From a bacterium (GTDB lineage: Bacteria > Armatimonadota > Zipacnadia > Zipacnadales > Zipacnadaceae), in assembly GCA_030603495.1 (NCBI GenBank), contig JAUVXR010000009.1, positions 1-64,000 on the forward strand: a DNA stretch of 64,000 nt. Direction: 5' to 3'. The position numbers and the translations under genes are program-made. Positions 54,728 through 62,549 of this stretch are shown one piece after another. Under the pieces are notes generated by a model. The model saw nothing but the letters and a program-made list of their open reading frames with translations, was not told the origin of the DNA and did no database searches. Each line of letters begins with the position of its first letter. Position 1 is the first letter of the stretch.

Positions 54728-55366
54728 ATGGCAGACTTACAAGCTCTAGCGGAAATGGTAATCAATGGTAATCGTGACGAGGTGACCCGGATGGTACAGG
54801 AGGCGGTTGACGAGGGAGTTAGCCCCGAGTCAATCGTCAACGAGGCACTGATTGCGGGAATGAATGAGGTAGGCCGACGGTTCAAGGCCAACGAGTTCTA
54901 TGTGCCGGAGGTGTTGATTGCTGCACGGGCTATGCACGCGGGAATGGACATCGTCAAGCCGCTGCTGGCCGAAAGCGGAGTCCAACCGCGTGGCGTCGTG
55001 GCTGTTGGCACGGTCCAGGGCGACCTCCACGACATCGGCAAGAACCTGGTGGCGATGATGCTTGAGGGCGGCGGCTATGAGGTCGTTGACCTGGAAGTCG
55101 ATGTCACTGCCGATGCCTTTGTGGCGGCGGTAAGCGAGCACTCTCCCAACATCCTGGCACTGTCGGCGTTGCTGACCACCACTATGCCGGCAATGCAGAC
55201 CACGATTGACGCGCTGAGTGCCGCTGGCGTGCGCGACAGCGTCAAGGTTATGATCGGCGGGGCACCGGTTACCCAGGCCTATGCGGACGAGATCGGCGCC
55301 GACGGATACGCGCCGGATGCCGCCTCCGCCGTTGACCTGGCCAACGAGCTTGCGCCGGCCGGATAG
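54728..55366 (+). CDS. corrinoid-binding protein of a methyltransferase system (MtaC/MtbC-like)
   Basis: 212 residues from ATG 54728, 8 bases after AGGAGG. An N-terminal helical cap domain (~1-88; EAVDEGVSPESIVNEALIAG) precedes a Rossmann B12-binding domain carrying GDLHDIGKNLVAMMLEGGGY (DxHxxG with Asp99, His101, Gly104; His ligates cobalt) and MIGGAPVTQAYADEIGADGY. Such proteins carry methyl groups between a substrate-specific methyltransferase and an acceptor (THF or CoM). Neither methyltransferase is present, so the methyl donor is unknown; RACo upstream would keep it active. Confidence 0.93.
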   Translation: MADLQALAEMVINGNRDEVTRMVQEAVDEGVSPESIVNEALIAGMNEVGRRFKANEFYVPEVLIAARAMHAGMDIVKPLLAESGVQPRGVVAVGTVQGDLHDIGKNLVAMMLEGGGYEVVDLEVDVTADAFVAAVSEHSPNILALSALLTTTMPAMQTTIDALSAAGVRDSVKVMIGGAPVTQAYADEIGADGYAPDAASAVDLANELAPAG

Positions 55367-55474: not shown

Positions 55475-55503
55475 GCCGCAGCTACTGTCTGTGTAGCTGC
55501 GGC
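55475..55503 (+). terminator. perfect 11-bp hairpin between the corrinoid and EamA-like genes
   Basis: GCCGCAGCTAC pairs with GTAGCTGCGGC around TGTCTGT. There is no T-run. It ends just before the GAGG ribosome site of the gene at 55521, so it could terminate the upstream message or modulate translation. Confidence 0.4.
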
Positions 55504-55520
55504 CTGAGGTACTAGCACAG

Positions 55521-56000
55521 ATGAATGCTGACCAATCAACTGGCGATGCCCAAGATCGCAAAGGACGGCCTGCTATGTGGGTCCCACTTGTCGTGCTGCT
55601 TGGTGCGATACTCCTGGGGGCGGCCGGCCAGATCTGTTTGAAGTTCGGCTTGGCCGACCTCGGCGCCAAGTCGCTGTTCGTGGTGATCACCGCGATGTTC
55701 CGTAACTGGTTTGTGCTGGGCGGGTTCCTTGCCTACGGTGCAAGCTCCCTGCTTTATCTGTTCGTGTTGTCCCGCCTGGATGTTAGCTATGCCTACCCTA
55801 TGGTCGCCCTGAACTACATATTCGTGACCATCCTCGCCTGGTTGATCCTCAAAGAGAGCGTACCAGCGGTGCGGATATTGGGGCTGGCGATAATCCTTGT
55901 AGGGGTGATGGTCTTCGCCACGGGCTACCGTGGCTCAGATACTGGGGAAGGCGACCAGCTCAGCAGCGCGGTCATCGAAGATGCCCACGCTCAAGGATAG
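55521..56000 (+). CDS. EamA/DMT-type small membrane transporter
   Basis: 159 residues from ATG 55521 with TGAGGT upstream. Four membrane helices (VPLVVLLGAILLGAAGQICL; FVLGGFLAYGASSLLYLFVL; AYPMVALNYIFVTILAWLIL; ILGLAIILVGVMVFATG), the layout of EmrE/ArnE-type 4TM carriers. YPMVALNYIFVT and LKESVP resemble EamA members. It probably works as a dimer; ArnE-like versions flip glycolipid precursors, which would fit the membrane glycan-type genes that follow. Confidence 0.8.
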   Translation: MNADQSTGDAQDRKGRPAMWVPLVVLLGAILLGAAGQICLKFGLADLGAKSLFVVITAMFRNWFVLGGFLAYGASSLLYLFVLSRLDVSYAYPMVALNYIFVTILAWLILKESVPAVRILGLAIILVGVMVFATGYRGSDTGEGDQLSSAVIEDAHAQG

Positions 56001-56069
56001 CTGGCGGACAGGGGCCTCCCAGGCCAGGGAGCACGTCAGAAGGTGAGCACTTTCGTGGTGGTGGTATGA

Positions 56070-58196
56070 GTGCCGTTGTGCGGCAGAGCTAACTGTGCGC
56101 GAATGATTGCTGTCCTCGTGTTGGCTGCTGTGAGCATCGGCTTCTGGTATCCCTGTCTGTTCGAAGGCAAGGTGCCGGTGGCTGGCCAGCACCAGACGTG
56201 GATGCTGCCCTGGCGGGAGGCCCAGCCGCCAGAGATGACCACGAGGCACTGGGACCCGTTGCTCTGGGATAGCGTTGCCCAGTTTTATCCGTGGCGGCTG
56301 CTGCTGGAACGCGGGCTGCGCAGCGGCGAAATCCCGATGTGGTCCCCTTATCAGTACTGCGGCTACCCCCTGGTGGGCAACGGGCAGTCCGGCATCTTCT
56401 ATCCGCCTAACTGGCTGCTGGCGCTGCTGCCAACCGGCAAGTTCCTGGGGCTAAGTCTCGCTCTGCATTTTTTCTTCGCGGGCCTGCTCACCTTTTGTTT
56501 CTGTCGCCTGTTGCGTCTGTCGATTCTGCCGGCGTTGTTTGCCGGCCTGGCGTATTCCTATGGCGGATTCATGGTCACGTGGGCGCTGCTGCCTACACTG
56601 GTGGCCGGCGCTGCTTGGCTGCCCGGTGCCTTGGCCGGTATTGAGTTGGCACTGCGGGCGCGAGCGCGGGCAGGGATGGTACTGCTGGCTGCCTGCCTGG
56701 GGTTGACACTACTGGCCGGGCATATGCAGATTGCCGCCTACGTGTGGATGATCGCCGGGACATACGCAGTAGGCCGGGTGTTGTATCGCCTGCTGCACAG
56801 GCAGCCGGTCGTGTGGTGGCCACTTGTTGCCGGCGCCGGCCTGGGGCTGATGCTGGGGATGGCCCAGGTGCTGCCCACAGTCGAGCTGGGCCTATACTCC
56901 CCACGCGGCAGCGACGTGGTCAGCGAGGCGGGTTGGCAATTTCAACTGCAACGCTTCCTCAAGCCGCACGAGCTGGTTACCTTTGTTTTCCCTGATGCGC
57001 TAGGTACCTCGGCAGCCGGTGACTACCGGGGGATGAAGCTCGGCATCCCCTACAGTGAGCATTGCGGCTTCGCGGGCGTGGTAACCTTGCTCCTGGCTCT
57101 GGTCGCTGTAGTATACCGGCGCGACCGGCTCAGTTGGGCTTTCCTGGCGGCCACACTGGTTGTACTTGCCGTGATTATGGGCGGGCCGCTGGCGCGGCTG
57201 CTTTACTTCTATGTGCCGAAGATCGGCCTCACCGGCAGCTTTGCCCGCCTGCTGTTTGTCTACATCTTGTGCGTCGCAGTGCTGGCGGCTCTGGGGTTGG
57301 ATCATCTAATGCGCCGGATATCTCCGACTCATCGCTTCCAAAGCGTGGTCTATTATCTTCTTGGAATAGGACTCATTGCGGTGTTGCTCGGGGAGTTGTT
57401 GCCCTGGGGCCGGCGGTTCATACCGATGATCTCAACCGAGCGAGTATATGCCCAGACGGAGCTGACGCGCCAGCTTCAGCGGTGCGATCCCGCGGAGGGC
57501 CGTGTCCTGGCGATCACGCCGCGCCACGCCTGGAGCCTGTTTGAGACTCCCCCAGCACTCCTGCCTCCCAACTCAGCTACGGTCTACGGTTATCACAGCG
57601 TGCAAGGGTACGATTCGCTGTCTATTGACCAGTACTATTCAGGACTTGCGGCGAAGATAGCCGTAGGCACACCGGCCCCAATTGAAAACGGCAACATGAT
57701 GCTGCTGCAGAACTACAGTTCGCCATTGCTAGCGGCCGCGGCGGTAAAGTGGATTGTTTCAAGGGAGCCGCTCCGCTCGGCCAACCTAGAGTTGCTCTGG
57801 TACGGCGAAGGTGCCTATCTCTACCAGACCAACGCGCTTCCCCGTTTTATGGTGCTGGGCCGGGAGGGAGCGATCACCGAGCCTACTGCCGTAGATCTCT
57901 GCCTCAACTCTATGCGGTTAGACCTGCCTGATTCCTCTGGGAGCAGTTTGCTTGCCGCAGATGCCTGGTACCCGGGTTGGCACTGTTTCGCGGAGCAGAA
58001 GGCCGTGCCTATTGAGCAGTCGGGGGATGCTTTCCGTCGGGTGGCGATCCCTGACGGAGCCACCCGTCTGTTTATGGCCTACTACCCGGCCACCGTCTTG
58101 TGCGGCCTGTTCCTATCGCTGACGGCGCTGGCGGTCGTAATAGCTGTAGGTTGCGGGTCATTGTCTTACTTTCGCGGAACAAATAAACCAATATGA
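56070..58196 (+). CDS. YfhO-like polytopic membrane protein (putative GT-C glycosyltransferase)
   Basis: Up to 708 residues from GTG 56070; ATG 56103 is an alternative. One N-terminal helix is followed by a periplasmic loop with WDPLLWDSVAQFYPWRLLLE (~60-80), then about ten helices to residue ~465 and a soluble C-terminal part (~470-670). A last helix lies near 685 (GLFLSLTALAVVIAVG). YfhO-family proteins are GT-C enzymes that glycosylate lipid-linked or teichoic polymers. The first-loop acidic residues match that idea. Stop overlaps the next start (ATGA). Confidence 0.72.
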   Translation: MPLCGRANCARMIAVLVLAAVSIGFWYPCLFEGKVPVAGQHQTWMLPWREAQPPEMTTRHWDPLLWDSVAQFYPWRLLLERGLRSGEIPMWSPYQYCGYPLVGNGQSGIFYPPNWLLALLPTGKFLGLSLALHFFFAGLLTFCFCRLLRLSILPALFAGLAYSYGGFMVTWALLPTLVAGAAWLPGALAGIELALRARARAGMVLLAACLGLTLLAGHMQIAAYVWMIAGTYAVGRVLYRLLHRQPVVWWPLVAGAGLGLMLGMAQVLPTVELGLYSPRGSDVVSEAGWQFQLQRFLKPHELVTFVFPDALGTSAAGDYRGMKLGIPYSEHCGFAGVVTLLLALVAVVYRRDRLSWAFLAATLVVLAVIMGGPLARLLYFYVPKIGLTGSFARLLFVYILCVAVLAALGLDHLMRRISPTHRFQSVVYYLLGIGLIAVLLGELLPWGRRFIPMISTERVYAQTELTRQLQRCDPAEGRVLAITPRHAWSLFETPPALLPPNSATVYGYHSVQGYDSLSIDQYYSGLAAKIAVGTPAPIENGNMMLLQNYSSPLLAAAAVKWIVSREPLRSANLELLWYGEGAYLYQTNALPRFMVLGREGAITEPTAVDLCLNSMRLDLPDSSGSSLLAADAWYPGWHCFAEQKAVPIEQSGDAFRRVAIPDGATRLFMAYYPATVLCGLFLSLTALAVVIAVGCGSLSYFRGTNKPI

Positions 58197-59560
58197 AAAT
58201 ACTGCTTATCTTTCCCAGATTCAGATACGCCTCGGGCGATCCCCCGCTGGGCATAGCTTACCTGGCGGCGGTGCTGCGCCAAATTGGCGCCGAGGTCGAG
58301 ATACTTGACGCCACGTTCGTCAAGCAGCCGCTGCGGGTGCTGCGCGATAAGCTGCAAGCAGCGCACTACGATGTCGTCGGCATCACCGCCCTGACCTCGA
58401 TGATCTCGGAGGTCCGCGACATTGCCGCGCTGGTAGAGCGAATAGACCCAGCGACAACGGTGGTGGTTGGTGGGCCGCATGCGACGATGCTCCCCGATGA
58501 GACTCTTGAGCTGCCCGGAGTGGATGCGGTGGCCGTCGGCGAGGGCGAAGTGAGCTTCCGGCGGCTGGTCGAGGCAGATTTGGACTTCTCGCGGGTTCCG
58601 GGGTTTCGCTACCGCAGCGACGGACAGACTGTGGACACCGGCTCCCCGCCGCTCGTCGAGGACCTGAACACCATCCCGTATCCGGCCTGGGACCTACTGC
58701 CAATGGCGCAGTACCTGCGCGTGTGGTATCAGCTAGACGCGGTGGCATACGGCCTGCGCGGTACTTCCATAATCGCCTCACGCGGGTGTCCCTATGATTG
58801 TGCTTACTGTCAGCCGACCCTACGCGAGATCTTTGGGCGGCGCATGCGCTTCCGCTCTGTAGACAACATACTGGGTGAGCTGGCTGAACTTGAGGCCCGC
58901 TACGCCGTTGATGGCGTGATGTGGCTGGACGATACATTCGGCATGAATCGCCTCTGGCTCACCGAGCTATGCCGCGCGCTTATTGACTGGAACAGCGGGC
59001 TGGTCTGGGGCTGCAATCTGCGTGCGGATATTGTCGAGCGGGAGACACTGGCCATGATGCAGGAGGCGGGGCTCCGGATCGTCCACCTGGGGATTGAATC
59101 AGCCACCCAGCGAATCCTCGACGAGGTCTACCAGAAGGGCATCACTGTCGAGCAGGTGCGTGAGGCGGTGTATACCGCCAAGGACCTGGGCCTGTGTGTG
59201 CGCGCCTATTTCATGCTGGGAGCGCCGACCGAGACCGATGAGGAGATTCGGGCCACCATTCGCCTGGCCAACGAACTACCGCTCGATGACGTCACCTTCA
59301 GCATCACCACGCCCCTGCCCGGGACTCATCTGTACGAGAAGACTCGGGAGCTGATTGGTGGCGACTTCTCGGCGTTTGACTACTACAAGAGCGCGGTTTA
59401 TGATAGCCACAGCGTTCTGCCAGCGCCTCGCCTGGATCGGCTAAAGAAAGCCGGTTATGCGCAGTTCTATTTGGGCCGCAAGCGCCTCTGGCGGACCATC
59501 CGCTCGGTGCTGGGTATATCTGGGCTGCGCAAAGCGCTGCTCAAGATAGAGCGCTTCTGA
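58193..59560 (+). CDS. B12-binding-domain radical SAM enzyme
   Basis: 455 residues from ATG 58193, overlapping the upstream stop. An N-terminal cobalamin-binding-like domain (~1-140; PPLGIAYLAAVLRQIGAEVE, VVVGGPHATMLPDETL) lacks the DxHxxG cobalt-ligand motif. The radical SAM core has ASRGCPYDCAYCQP (CxxxCxxC at ~199, 203, 206) and GVMWLDDTFGMNR, HLGIESATQRILDEVYQKGI. Members methylate unreactive carbons or rearrange lipids (for example HpnP and related enzymes). The location between two polytopic membrane proteins suggests a lipid or glycolipid substrate. Confidence 0.9.
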   Translation: MKILLIFPRFRYASGDPPLGIAYLAAVLRQIGAEVEILDATFVKQPLRVLRDKLQAAHYDVVGITALTSMISEVRDIAALVERIDPATTVVVGGPHATMLPDETLELPGVDAVAVGEGEVSFRRLVEADLDFSRVPGFRYRSDGQTVDTGSPPLVEDLNTIPYPAWDLLPMAQYLRVWYQLDAVAYGLRGTSIIASRGCPYDCAYCQPTLREIFGRRMRFRSVDNILGELAELEARYAVDGVMWLDDTFGMNRLWLTELCRALIDWNSGLVWGCNLRADIVERETLAMMQEAGLRIVHLGIESATQRILDEVYQKGITVEQVREAVYTAKDLGLCVRAYFMLGAPTETDEEIRATIRLANELPLDDVTFSITTPLPGTHLYEKTRELIGGDFSAFDYYKSAVYDSHSVLPAPRLDRLKKAGYAQFYLGRKRLWRTIRSVLGISGLRKALLKIERF

Positions 59561-59573
59561 GTAACTGAGTGTT

Positions 59574-61307
59574 ATGACAGCAGCTAAGCGCCCGATAATC
59601 AGTCGCTCCGAAACCCTAATCGTGCTGGGGCTGGCCGTCGTGGTGATGGCCCTGACCACACTGCCCTACTTGTGGGCGCTGCAGATGGCCAACCCGGGCG
59701 ATTACTTCGCCGGCTTCATCTGGGGTGTGGACGACGGCAATGTCTATCTCTCGTGGATTCGCCAGGCAGCTGAAGGCCAGTGGCTGCTGGCCAATCAATA
59801 CACCATCGCGCCGCAGGACCCGCACTTCTTCAATATCTTCCTTCTGCTCCTGGGTAAGATTTGCGCTTTGACGGGCCTCGCGCCTGTCGTCGTCTTCCAC
59901 CTCGCCCGCCTGCTTGGCGGCATATTCCTGCTTTACGCCTTCTTCTTGCTTGTTGCGGAGGTGACGGCAAGCTGGCGTATCCGCTTGGCCAGCGTAGCGA
60001 TCGCGGCGCTGTCGTCAGGATTAGGATGGATCGTCTACCTCCAGGCGCGAGCCAGCGGCTTGCCGCTGGGAGTATGGTCCGATAGGGGGCCGATGGATGT
60101 CGCCTTCGGTTGGCAGGTCCAGCCCGAAGCTGTCACCGCTCTCGCGCTGCTCCTGAACCCTCTGTTTGTCACCGCAATGGGTCTGCTGTGTCTGGTCTTC
60201 CGGCACGGGCTGCGGGCTGCGCGGCCAGAGTCTGGCCTGCGCGATGCTGTCATCTGCGGCGCCCTGCTACTGATTCTGGGCAACATTCATTCCTACGATG
60301 TCTTTATCGCGTATTCGGTGCTGTTTGTGTGGTTCATGATAGCTGCGGCGAAGGGCCGACTCCAGTGGAGTTGGGCGGTCGCGCGCTACGCAGTGATCGC
60401 GCTGCTGGGCGCAGCCGCTCCGCTGTGGGCCTACTATGCTTCACATGCTGACCCAGCCTACCTCGTCAAGGTCCAGACGCCCACCTACTCGCCGGCACCA
60501 ATTCACTATGTGGTGGGCTACGGCCTGGTGCTGTTGGCAGCGATAGGCGGGGTTGTCTGGGTGATCCGTGGGATGAGAACATCTGCCAGTGATCGGGGGG
60601 AGAGCCTCAGCGCAGAGTGGCTGTTTCCTGTAGTCTGGGTGGTGCTCGGGTCAGGGCTGTTGTATCTGCCGGTCTCGTTCCAGCGCAAGCTCATTGAGGG
60701 GCTGCACCTGCCGCTATGTCTTCTGGCGGCGGCCGGGTTGGTCAGAGTGCATGAGTGGGTTGGTCGCCGGGTGTCATTCGCATTGCTCCTCGTAGTGTTC
60801 GTGCTGCTGACCGTCCCGTCCAACATTGTGTTTGTGGCCGACTCCCTCGAGCACGTGGCGGTCAATAATGTTGATATGCTCCGCTACCTGATGCCGCCGG
60901 TATACCTGACGGCGGCAGAGAAAACAGGTTTGACATGGCTGGCGACGAATGCTCCGCCCGATGCGGTGGTATTAGCCTCTTCGCTTATCGGCAATCATAT
61001 TCCCGCGCACACCTCCTGCCGGGTGGTCGCTGGTCATTGGGCAGAGACACTGAATCTGGGCGAAATGCTCGAGCAGTTGGGGTATTTCTACTGGCCAGGC
61101 CTGGACCCAGCGGCCCGTGAGCAGATCCTGCGCAACACCGGCACCGACTTCGTTTTCTATGGGCCCTTGGAGAAGCTCGTCCAGCAGGGCATGGCGCGCA
61201 GCGGCCGATTTGACCCCGAGGCCGCTTGGGACCCGACCCTCGGCTTGCCTGACTTGAAGCTTGTGTTCGTCGGTGGAGATGTGCGCATATATCAGGTGCG
61301 AAAATAG
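59574..61307 (+). CDS. polytopic membrane protein, possible GT-C type
   Basis: 577 residues from ATG 59574. About ten to eleven hydrophobic helices: the first is ~15-35 (IVLGLAVVVMALTTLPYLWA), followed by a loop with GFIWGVDDGNVYLSWIRQAA whose DD resembles the catalytic pair of GT-C enzymes. The C-terminal ~120 residues are soluble (GLTWLATNAPPDAVVLASSL; RNTGTDFVFYGPLEKL). No close family recognised. 13 bases after the radical SAM gene, hence same operon. Confidence 0.7.
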   Translation: MTAAKRPIISRSETLIVLGLAVVVMALTTLPYLWALQMANPGDYFAGFIWGVDDGNVYLSWIRQAAEGQWLLANQYTIAPQDPHFFNIFLLLLGKICALTGLAPVVVFHLARLLGGIFLLYAFFLLVAEVTASWRIRLASVAIAALSSGLGWIVYLQARASGLPLGVWSDRGPMDVAFGWQVQPEAVTALALLLNPLFVTAMGLLCLVFRHGLRAARPESGLRDAVICGALLLILGNIHSYDVFIAYSVLFVWFMIAAAKGRLQWSWAVARYAVIALLGAAAPLWAYYASHADPAYLVKVQTPTYSPAPIHYVVGYGLVLLAAIGGVVWVIRGMRTSASDRGESLSAEWLFPVVWVVLGSGLLYLPVSFQRKLIEGLHLPLCLLAAAGLVRVHEWVGRRVSFALLLVVFVLLTVPSNIVFVADSLEHVAVNNVDMLRYLMPPVYLTAAEKTGLTWLATNAPPDAVVLASSLIGNHIPAHTSCRVVAGHWAETLNLGEMLEQLGYFYWPGLDPAAREQILRNTGTDFVFYGPLEKLVQQGMARSGRFDPEAAWDPTLGLPDLKLVFVGGDVRIYQVRK

Positions 61308-61400
61308 CCGCGTCGGTTGTGTAGTCTCCTGGGCCAATTTTCCCGCGCGCTGCCAGAACATTGCGACGGGTAGAGCGTCTAACTATCTGGAGGCAAGTTG

Positions 61401-62549
61401 GTGAACCGGTTTGCACATAACAAAGCTCTGATTGCTGTCACCCTCGCAGTGGCCCTGACTGTGGCCCCGGCGTCAGCGCGTGAGTGGAGCGAGGAGTACG
61501 AAAAGAAGGTGGGTGATAGGGCGGTTGAGGCTGTCCTCGAAGAGTACGAATTGTATGAAGACGAGGAAGCTCAGCAACATATTGAGCAGATAGTAGCGCG
61601 GCTGGTCCCCTACACCCAGCGCCCCGACCTGAAGTACAAGGCTTACTTGATAGACCGTGACGAAGCCAATGCCTTCACCGTGCCGGGAGGGCATGTCTTT
61701 GTCACCAAGGGGCTCCTCGAGGAGGTCGAATCTGAGGCGCAACTGGCCGGTGTAGTTGCTCACGAGATGGCCCATAATTGCACATACGACTCGCTCGACC
61801 AACTCAAGCGTGCCCAGGATATGTCTTTGGCTATGGCGGCGGCCGTTCTGGTGGCTGTGCTCACTGGGCGCGGCAGTGAAGCCACATACGGGGTAATGAT
61901 CGGGGGGGAGATAGTCACCCGGGGGGTGCTGTCCACCTACTCGATTGAGATCGAGACCCGAGCCGACCGCAATGCCGTCGCATACCTGCTGGCGGCTGGG
62001 TACGACGTGGTGGGGCTACTCACCTTTATGGAGGAGCTGGCCCGGGAGGAACGCAAGAAGCCTACTACAGAGCTGGGCATTCTTCAGACTCACCCCCTCT
62101 CCACCAAGCGCGTTGCAGATCTGATTGACTTGCTGGACGAGGCCGACGTGATAATAAACCGCCGGGCCGTCACTAAGTGGGACCTGCCCGTCGTCGAGAC
62201 CGGCGAAATAGGCGGCAAGCCTGTCCAGATTCTCAAGCTGTGGGACGAGCCGCTGTTCGCCTTCGCCCACTCGCCTGGTGGCGGCGACGTTGCCTCGCGA
62301 GGGGAGCGGATGGTTGAAGTGCTCACCGAGCTGCTGCGCGAGGGTGTGCGAGCTTTTGAGTTCTATATAGTCCAGGAGAAGAGCGAAACCGCGGTTTCCG
62401 CCCGTGGACAGAAGCTGCTTACCGTATATCCTGAGGACGCCGCGCTGGCGGGCAAGTCAGTGGGCGACACCGCTGCGGCAGCCAGTCAGGCTATTCGGCG
62501 GGCACTGTACCAGGAGCGGCTGAATCGCCTTTACGGCGACGCCGAGTAA
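61401..62549 (+). CDS. exported M48-family metalloprotease
   Basis: 382 residues from GTG 61401, 7 bases after GGAGG; TTG 61398 is also in frame but too close. Signal peptide ALIAVTLAVALTVAPASA. Zinc site VVAHEMAHNCTYDSL (His121, Glu122, His125) with third ligand Glu in EIETRADRNAVAYLLAAGYD. NAFTVPGGHVFVTKGLL is the family signature preceding it. LQTHPLSTKRVADLIDLL closes the catalytic domain; the ~130-residue C-terminal part is unassigned. BepA/YfgC-like members control outer-membrane assembly, fitting the LPS-export genes next door. Confidence 0.92.
   Translation: MNRFAHNKALIAVTLAVALTVAPASAREWSEEYEKKVGDRAVEAVLEEYELYEDEEAQQHIEQIVARLVPYTQRPDLKYKAYLIDRDEANAFTVPGGHVFVTKGLLEEVESEAQLAGVVAHEMAHNCTYDSLDQLKRAQDMSLAMAAAVLVAVLTGRGSEATYGVMIGGEIVTRGVLSTYSIEIETRADRNAVAYLLAAGYDVVGLLTFMEELAREERKKPTTELGILQTHPLSTKRVADLIDLLDEADVIINRRAVTKWDLPVVETGEIGGKPVQILKLWDEPLFAFAHSPGGGDVASRGERMVEVLTELLREGVRAFEFYIVQEKSETAVSARGQKLLTVYPEDAALAGKSVGDTAAAASQAIRRALYQERLNRLYGDAE

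Follow-up and report, generated by a model that had tools for sequence, protein, structure and literature searches.

A conserved Armatimonadota gene cassette with an optional radical SAM member and a predicted role in extracytoplasmic glycosylation

Three- and multi-component transmembrane glycosylation systems, CsbB-GtcA-YfhO among them, have been reviewed (PMC8035078). In Citrobacter youngae O1/O2, a tailoring epimerase encoded in the cassette sets which pentofuranose sugar is added; in the sister serotype, remnants of the epimerase gene remain and a promiscuous GT-C accepts both sugars (PMC11127046). The Arn pathway of E. coli (ArnC, ArnT, ArnE/F) uses an ArnE-type flippase for its undecaprenyl-phosphate sugar, which is modified and then handed to an outer acceptor. 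Radical SAM enzymes that act on sugars include AprD4, which deoxygenates paromamine, GenK and GenD1, which methylate aminoglycoside sugars (PMC5461906), and HpnJ, which forms a cyclitol ether from glucosamine-bearing bacteriohopanetetrol (PMC12583986).

The four-gene locus described here lies in a 64,000-nt stretch of DNA (the window, G000:C27:1-64000) from a draft genome of 2.67 Mb in 62 contigs, 93.5% complete. It resembles CsbB-GtcA-YfhO in its predicted small flippase, its predicted YfhO-type polytopic transferase and, in cis in relatives, a GT2 donor synthase candidate. It differs in having an ArnE-type instead of a GtrA/GtcA flippase, two distinct polytopic proteins and an added cobalamin radical SAM gene, and in that the window itself lacks a GT2 gene in cis. 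Like Citrobacter O1/O2, the locus would be a three-component cassette to which a sugar-tailoring enzyme has been added that is lost in sister lineages while the GT-C is kept; however, Citrobacter relies on an SDR epimerase, a MATE family flippase and a GT136 GT-C, whereas radical chemistry is proposed here. The Arn pathway is matched in its type of flippase and, on the proposed reading, in the modification of a sugar before transfer to an outer acceptor, but the cassette has no detectable ArnT similarity and no adjacent ArnA/B/D genes, and its tailoring is proposed to be by a radical SAM enzyme. Given that the core appears to belong to this known class of multi-component transmembrane glycosylation, the original prediction that no named pathway contains these genes is true only of the set that includes the radical SAM gene. 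No paper connecting radical SAM enzymes to three-component glycosylation cassettes came up in full-text literature searches.

All four genes were recovered by ORF calling at the predicted coordinates and with the tight spacing that had been noted (Table 1). The stop codon of the 708-aa gene overlaps the start of the radical SAM gene in an ATGA at 58193-58196; the spacer between the carrier and 708-aa genes is 69 nt, and 13 nt separate the radical SAM stop from the 577-aa start. Since the same gene order recurs in a separately assembled sister record (L036), the locus is no artefact of joining during assembly. In comparison with L036, dN/dS was 0.25, 0.15, 0.12 and 0.13 for the genes in order, and all four are therefore under purifying selection. 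Because the order is also kept where the proteins are only 40-50% identical, the arrangement is not a product of chance. Scanning 52-64 kb against Rfam gave no match, and a promoter and terminator scan gave nothing beyond chance level. A strong 11-bp hairpin without a T tail occurs between the corrinoid and carrier genes (55475-55505); folding of the spacer as a whole is just a little better than that of shuffled sequences (z -1.5).

Table 1. Positions of the cassette genes and their immediate neighbours in the window
Feature	Position	Strand	Basis
Corrinoid protein, conserved upstream neighbour	54728..55366	+	Pfam, neighbourhood
159-aa EMR-fold protein of ArnE/ArnF type, predicted subunit of a polyprenyl-phosphate-sugar flippase	55521..56000	+	NCBIfam ArnE, hhalign, PDB EmrE
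708-aa polytopic protein related to YfhO, predicted GT-C glycosyltransferase	56070..58196	+	Pfam YfhO, topology, conservation
Optional 455-aa protein with radical SAM and cobalamin-binding domains	58193..59560	+	Pfam domains, orthologue positions
577-aa polytopic protein, predicted GT-C-like, with a soluble C-terminal domain	59574..61307	+	distribution, invariant residues
M48 peptidase, neighbour on the downstream side in the genus and family of the window	61398..62549	+	Pfam, neighbourhood

The best curated families for the carrier were ArnE and ArnF. It scored 51.9 bits against NCBIfam ArnE (E 7.3e-14), short of the ArnE equivalog (NF011625) cut-off of 92, and is by these scores a relative of ArnE rather than ArnE itself. 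Alignment to E. coli ArnE using hhalign gave a probability of 98.1% (E 7.8e-14), EmrE in the PDB was matched at E 1.6e-5, and five short segments were returned by a crude hydropathy scan. Its profile similarity to ArnE marks the protein as a predicted small flippase of the polyprenyl-phosphate-sugar type. The label of EamA carrier that it had been given holds for the superfamily, but the ArnE profile and hhalign results make ArnE-type EMR flippase the more precise name.

The carrier, YfhO-type and 577-aa genes occur together as a conserved locus in much of Armatimonadota. At 34 of 53 relative loci, the gene directly upstream of the 577-aa homologue was the YfhO-type gene or, next to a contig end, the radical SAM gene. 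As to the predicted conservation of the four-gene order, the neighbourhood was indeed kept, with the carrier, YfhO-type, (radical SAM) and 577-aa genes complete and in that order at 27 of the 53 loci and several others cut by contig ends, but the radical SAM gene proved optional and appears to have been lost repeatedly. In nine genomes (G007, G039, G018, G042, G035, G024, G031, G028 and G017) from five families (f1, f4, f5, f6 and f8), a GT2 gene lies at most about 120 nt after the 577-aa gene and is followed by a second YfhO-type gene. These GT2 proteins score with polyprenyl-/dolichyl-phosphate-sugar synthases and AglJ-type enzymes, all below cut-offs. The gene string runs on into PMT_2-type and GT2 genes in G040 and G018. 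No GT2 gene was present in cis in the window's own cassette; an M48 peptidase fills the downstream slot in this genus, while GT2 and/or second YfhO-type genes are found there in other families. Further GT2 matches in the window's genome lie on contigs C20 and C1, and these could act in trans. A third contig of that genome (C55, L122:7005-10571) carries overlapping genes for a YfhO-type protein (827 aa), a GT2 (237 aa) and an ArnF-like protein (127 aa), by homology a complete three-component set of counterparts to cassette members. Kdo-pathway-like genes are also present on C55.

With moderate confidence, we read the cassette as a multi-component (three-component) system for extracytoplasmic glycosylation in which radical tailoring is optional, and infer its catalytic steps and their substrates as follows. 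In the cytoplasm, a sugar would be placed on polyprenyl phosphate by a GT2 enzyme, for which candidate genes lie in cis in several relatives and at other sites in this genome. The radical SAM enzyme would then alter the lipid-carried sugar by using SAM, a [4Fe-4S] cluster and probably cobalamin, with C-methylation, deoxygenation or ring rearrangement as candidate reactions; this step would most likely precede flipping, given that the enzyme has no membrane segment. The lipid-linked sugar would be flipped by the ArnE-type protein, and the YfhO-type and 577-aa GT-C-like proteins would move it to an outside acceptor, candidates being LPS, other surface polysaccharide or protein. Where the radical SAM gene is missing, transfer would continue with the unmodified sugar. 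Points that weigh against this reading are the lack of a GT2 gene in cis in the window, the YfhO score of the 708-aa protein just under the Pfam cut-off, the missing ArnT similarity, the lack of a Pfam family for the 577-aa protein, the low-confidence structure models and the separate location of the radical SAM orthologue in G020. The earlier suggestion that these proteins flip and glycosylate thus gains support from the ArnE-like carrier, the YfhO-related protein and the candidate donor-making GT2 in the gene strings of relatives. Methylation, which had also been suggested, stays among the possible reactions but is not favoured by family scores, the nearest families (BchE and HpnJ) being non-methylating. 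A sugar substrate is plausible because relatives of the radical SAM protein (AprD4, GenK, GenD1 and HpnJ) act on sugars, although the substrate may instead be a lipid or a protein. Published descriptions place Zipacnadia in marine sediments that are hypoxic and anoxic (PMC10290634), a habitat that suits an oxygen-sensitive radical SAM enzyme. If the tailoring is real, radical chemistry would join the means by which carrier-lipid-bound surface sugars are diversified in bacteria. A natural comparison is offered by close relatives with and without the gene, among them members of one genus that carry it (G000, G001 and G005) or lack it (G003, G004 and G006). The cassette would also offer an entry point to how surface glycans are assembled in Armatimonadota, a phylum with few cultures.

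The assignment of the third gene as a B12/radical SAM enzyme was confirmed at the level of domains and cluster motif. The protein matches PF04055 (E 9.9e-26) and PF02310 (B12, E 1.8e-24), with the B12-binding domain preceding a radical SAM domain whose CxxxCxxC reads CxxxCxYC, an arrangement indicative of a cobalamin radical SAM enzyme; hydropathy gave no transmembrane segment. Of 15 orthologues aligned, 14 retain all three cluster cysteines. At the position of the cobalt-binding His of methionine synthase, a Thr is found (D39-A-T41, the mapping being inferred from motif order), which likens the family to other cobalamin radical SAM enzymes whose binding of the cofactor involves no His (PMC13331322). 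Its top-scoring curated relatives are BchE (181.5 bits) and HpnJ (172.9 bits), but both scores fall far below the cut-offs (481.35 for TIGR02026 and 577.6 for TIGR03471), and the AprD4 radical SAM diol-dehydratase model (NF033070) gave 121.4 bits against a cut-off of 500. By these scores the protein appears nearest to BchE and HpnJ while belonging to neither family. Solved relatives include 9ccb (the best PDB match), TokK and AprD4, the structure of which (6fd2) was matched at E 2.6e-29.

The kinship with HpnJ, and the presence of a ladderane-type lipid radical SAM family among the closest curated families, could mean that the target of the enzyme is a membrane lipid, whether fatty acyl, isoprenoid or hopanoid, which the polytopic proteins glycosylate or move, the cassette serving lipid remodelling. 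Several cobalamin radical SAM enzymes do act on lipids (PMC13142503). This reading is considered unlikely. Scores to the HpnJ and ladderane-type families are far below cut-offs, the core is unchanged where the radical SAM gene is missing, and the carrier, YfhO-type protein and neighbouring GT2 are all related to sugar-carrier enzymes. Among ten radical-SAM carriers tested, no hopene cyclase above the cut-off was found in the window's genome (best match 20.6 bits against 26.1, in a genome 93.5% complete) or in four others, while several of the remaining carriers have matches above it. A hopanoid role is therefore opposed in the window's genome, and is disfavoured for the cassette.

Distribution across the phylum also speaks for glycosylation with optional tailoring. 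Searching 291 genomes of the phylum with a profile gave 17 radical SAM orthologues at 330-862 bits, separated by a clear gap from the next matches (≤268 bits). Clustering with an unrelated pathway, which would have spoken against the original prediction, was not observed: 16 of the 17 lie directly 5' of the 577-aa gene, across five families, and only the copy in G020 is not beside a 577-aa homologue. The full order of ArnE-type, YfhO-type, radical SAM and 577-aa genes is seen at 12 of the 17 loci, the window included, and four further loci agree with it but are cut by contig ends. The gene is absent from about half of otherwise similar loci (counts are from draft genomes, with absence at intact loci read directly), and is an optional insert at one fixed site. 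On a tree of the 577-aa protein, its presence and absence correspond to eight changes, at least seven of which are forced by well-supported branches. In their own tree the radical SAM proteins cluster by family, with many deep forks unresolved; because of this grouping, repeated loss is likelier than repeated gain at one spot. The copy in G032 (L054:7671-9023) has RGCPFDRADS in place of RGCPxxCxYC, and with two of three cluster cysteines gone it is probably inactive and likely a step towards loss. Its reading frame is still open and its branch is long.

Absence from so many loci, the separate location of the G020 copy and the position of the whole locus inside a housekeeping run (PriA, Def, Fmt and RACo) could also be explained if the radical SAM gene were a mere passenger in a conserved gene string, with a function unrelated to the cassette. 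Little probability was assigned to this, since a passenger ought also to turn up elsewhere, whereas all orthologues but one in the 291 genomes occupy exactly one site in five families; in the window, moreover, its start overlaps the preceding stop, and purifying selection acts on it (dN/dS 0.12). A specific tie to the upstream corrinoid protein and RACo pair was rejected because those genes persist where the radical SAM gene is gone; the corrinoid protein is probably not functionally tied to it. In G058 (L079:5588-9204), a different B12/radical SAM gene, about 30% identical, converges on a YfhO-type gene next to the 577-aa homologue and overlaps the end of that YfhO-type gene; G256 and G257 of the same genus also carry it.

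The glycosylation reading further depends on the two polytopic proteins. The 708-aa protein matched Pfam YfhO (PF09586) at E 3.5e-6 and 26.1 bits, just under the gathering cut-off of 28.5, and 23 of 26 aligned orthologues matched it at E ≤ 0.01 (best E 1.3e-17). It has 10 hydropathy segments, the last two of which are separated by a large outer loop (445-675) as in the topology published for B. subtilis YfhO (PMC5836110). For the 577-aa protein, 12 hydropathy segments were counted and no Pfam family was found; it is an undescribed polytopic family that is near-universal in the phylum (246 of 291 genomes) and mostly single-copy. A 75%-identical homologue occurs in a Candidatus Zipacnadia MAG (phylum Armatimonadota). 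Acidic first loops had been noted in both proteins, and each indeed holds an invariant Asp in its first outer loop: D67 (26/26), within an invariant W66-D67, in the 708-aa family and D53 (46/46) in the 577-aa family. Further invariants in the latter are H239, R371-K372 and, in the C-terminal domain, H488-W489-E491. This domain gave a weak profile match (E 0.021) to 3vu0_A, which we take to be an archaeal AglB domain, over the SWWDYG stretch of that chain. Similarity to ArnT/PMT was not detected for either family by hhalign against one E. coli ArnT sequence (probability under 1%), and alignment of the two families to each other returned 4.9%, nothing usable. AlphaFold models made with one added sequence (L036) only were unusable, with mean pLDDT of 35.4 and 37.6. 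That both are some other kind of membrane protein and transfer no sugar, as the lack of a Pfam match for the 577-aa protein and the unusable models would allow, is very doubtful in light of the YfhO homology, the invariant Asp residues, the weak oligosaccharyltransferase-type match of the C-terminal domain and the GT2 and PMT-type genes that repeatedly adjoin in relatives. Three members of the 577-aa family touch DUF6541, and in L050 and L055 (family f2) the homologue is found by itself, apart from the other three kinds of cassette gene.

A search of viral contigs with the 577-aa family gave no match. A 36%-identical homologue of the radical SAM protein was found on a viral contig amid glycosyltransferases and a DegT aminotransferase, a setting that favours the sugar-tailoring reading. 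On an IMG/VR viral contig (L126:7977-12111), three consecutive radical SAM genes adjoin glycosyltransferase, DegT aminotransferase and methyltransferase-like genes.
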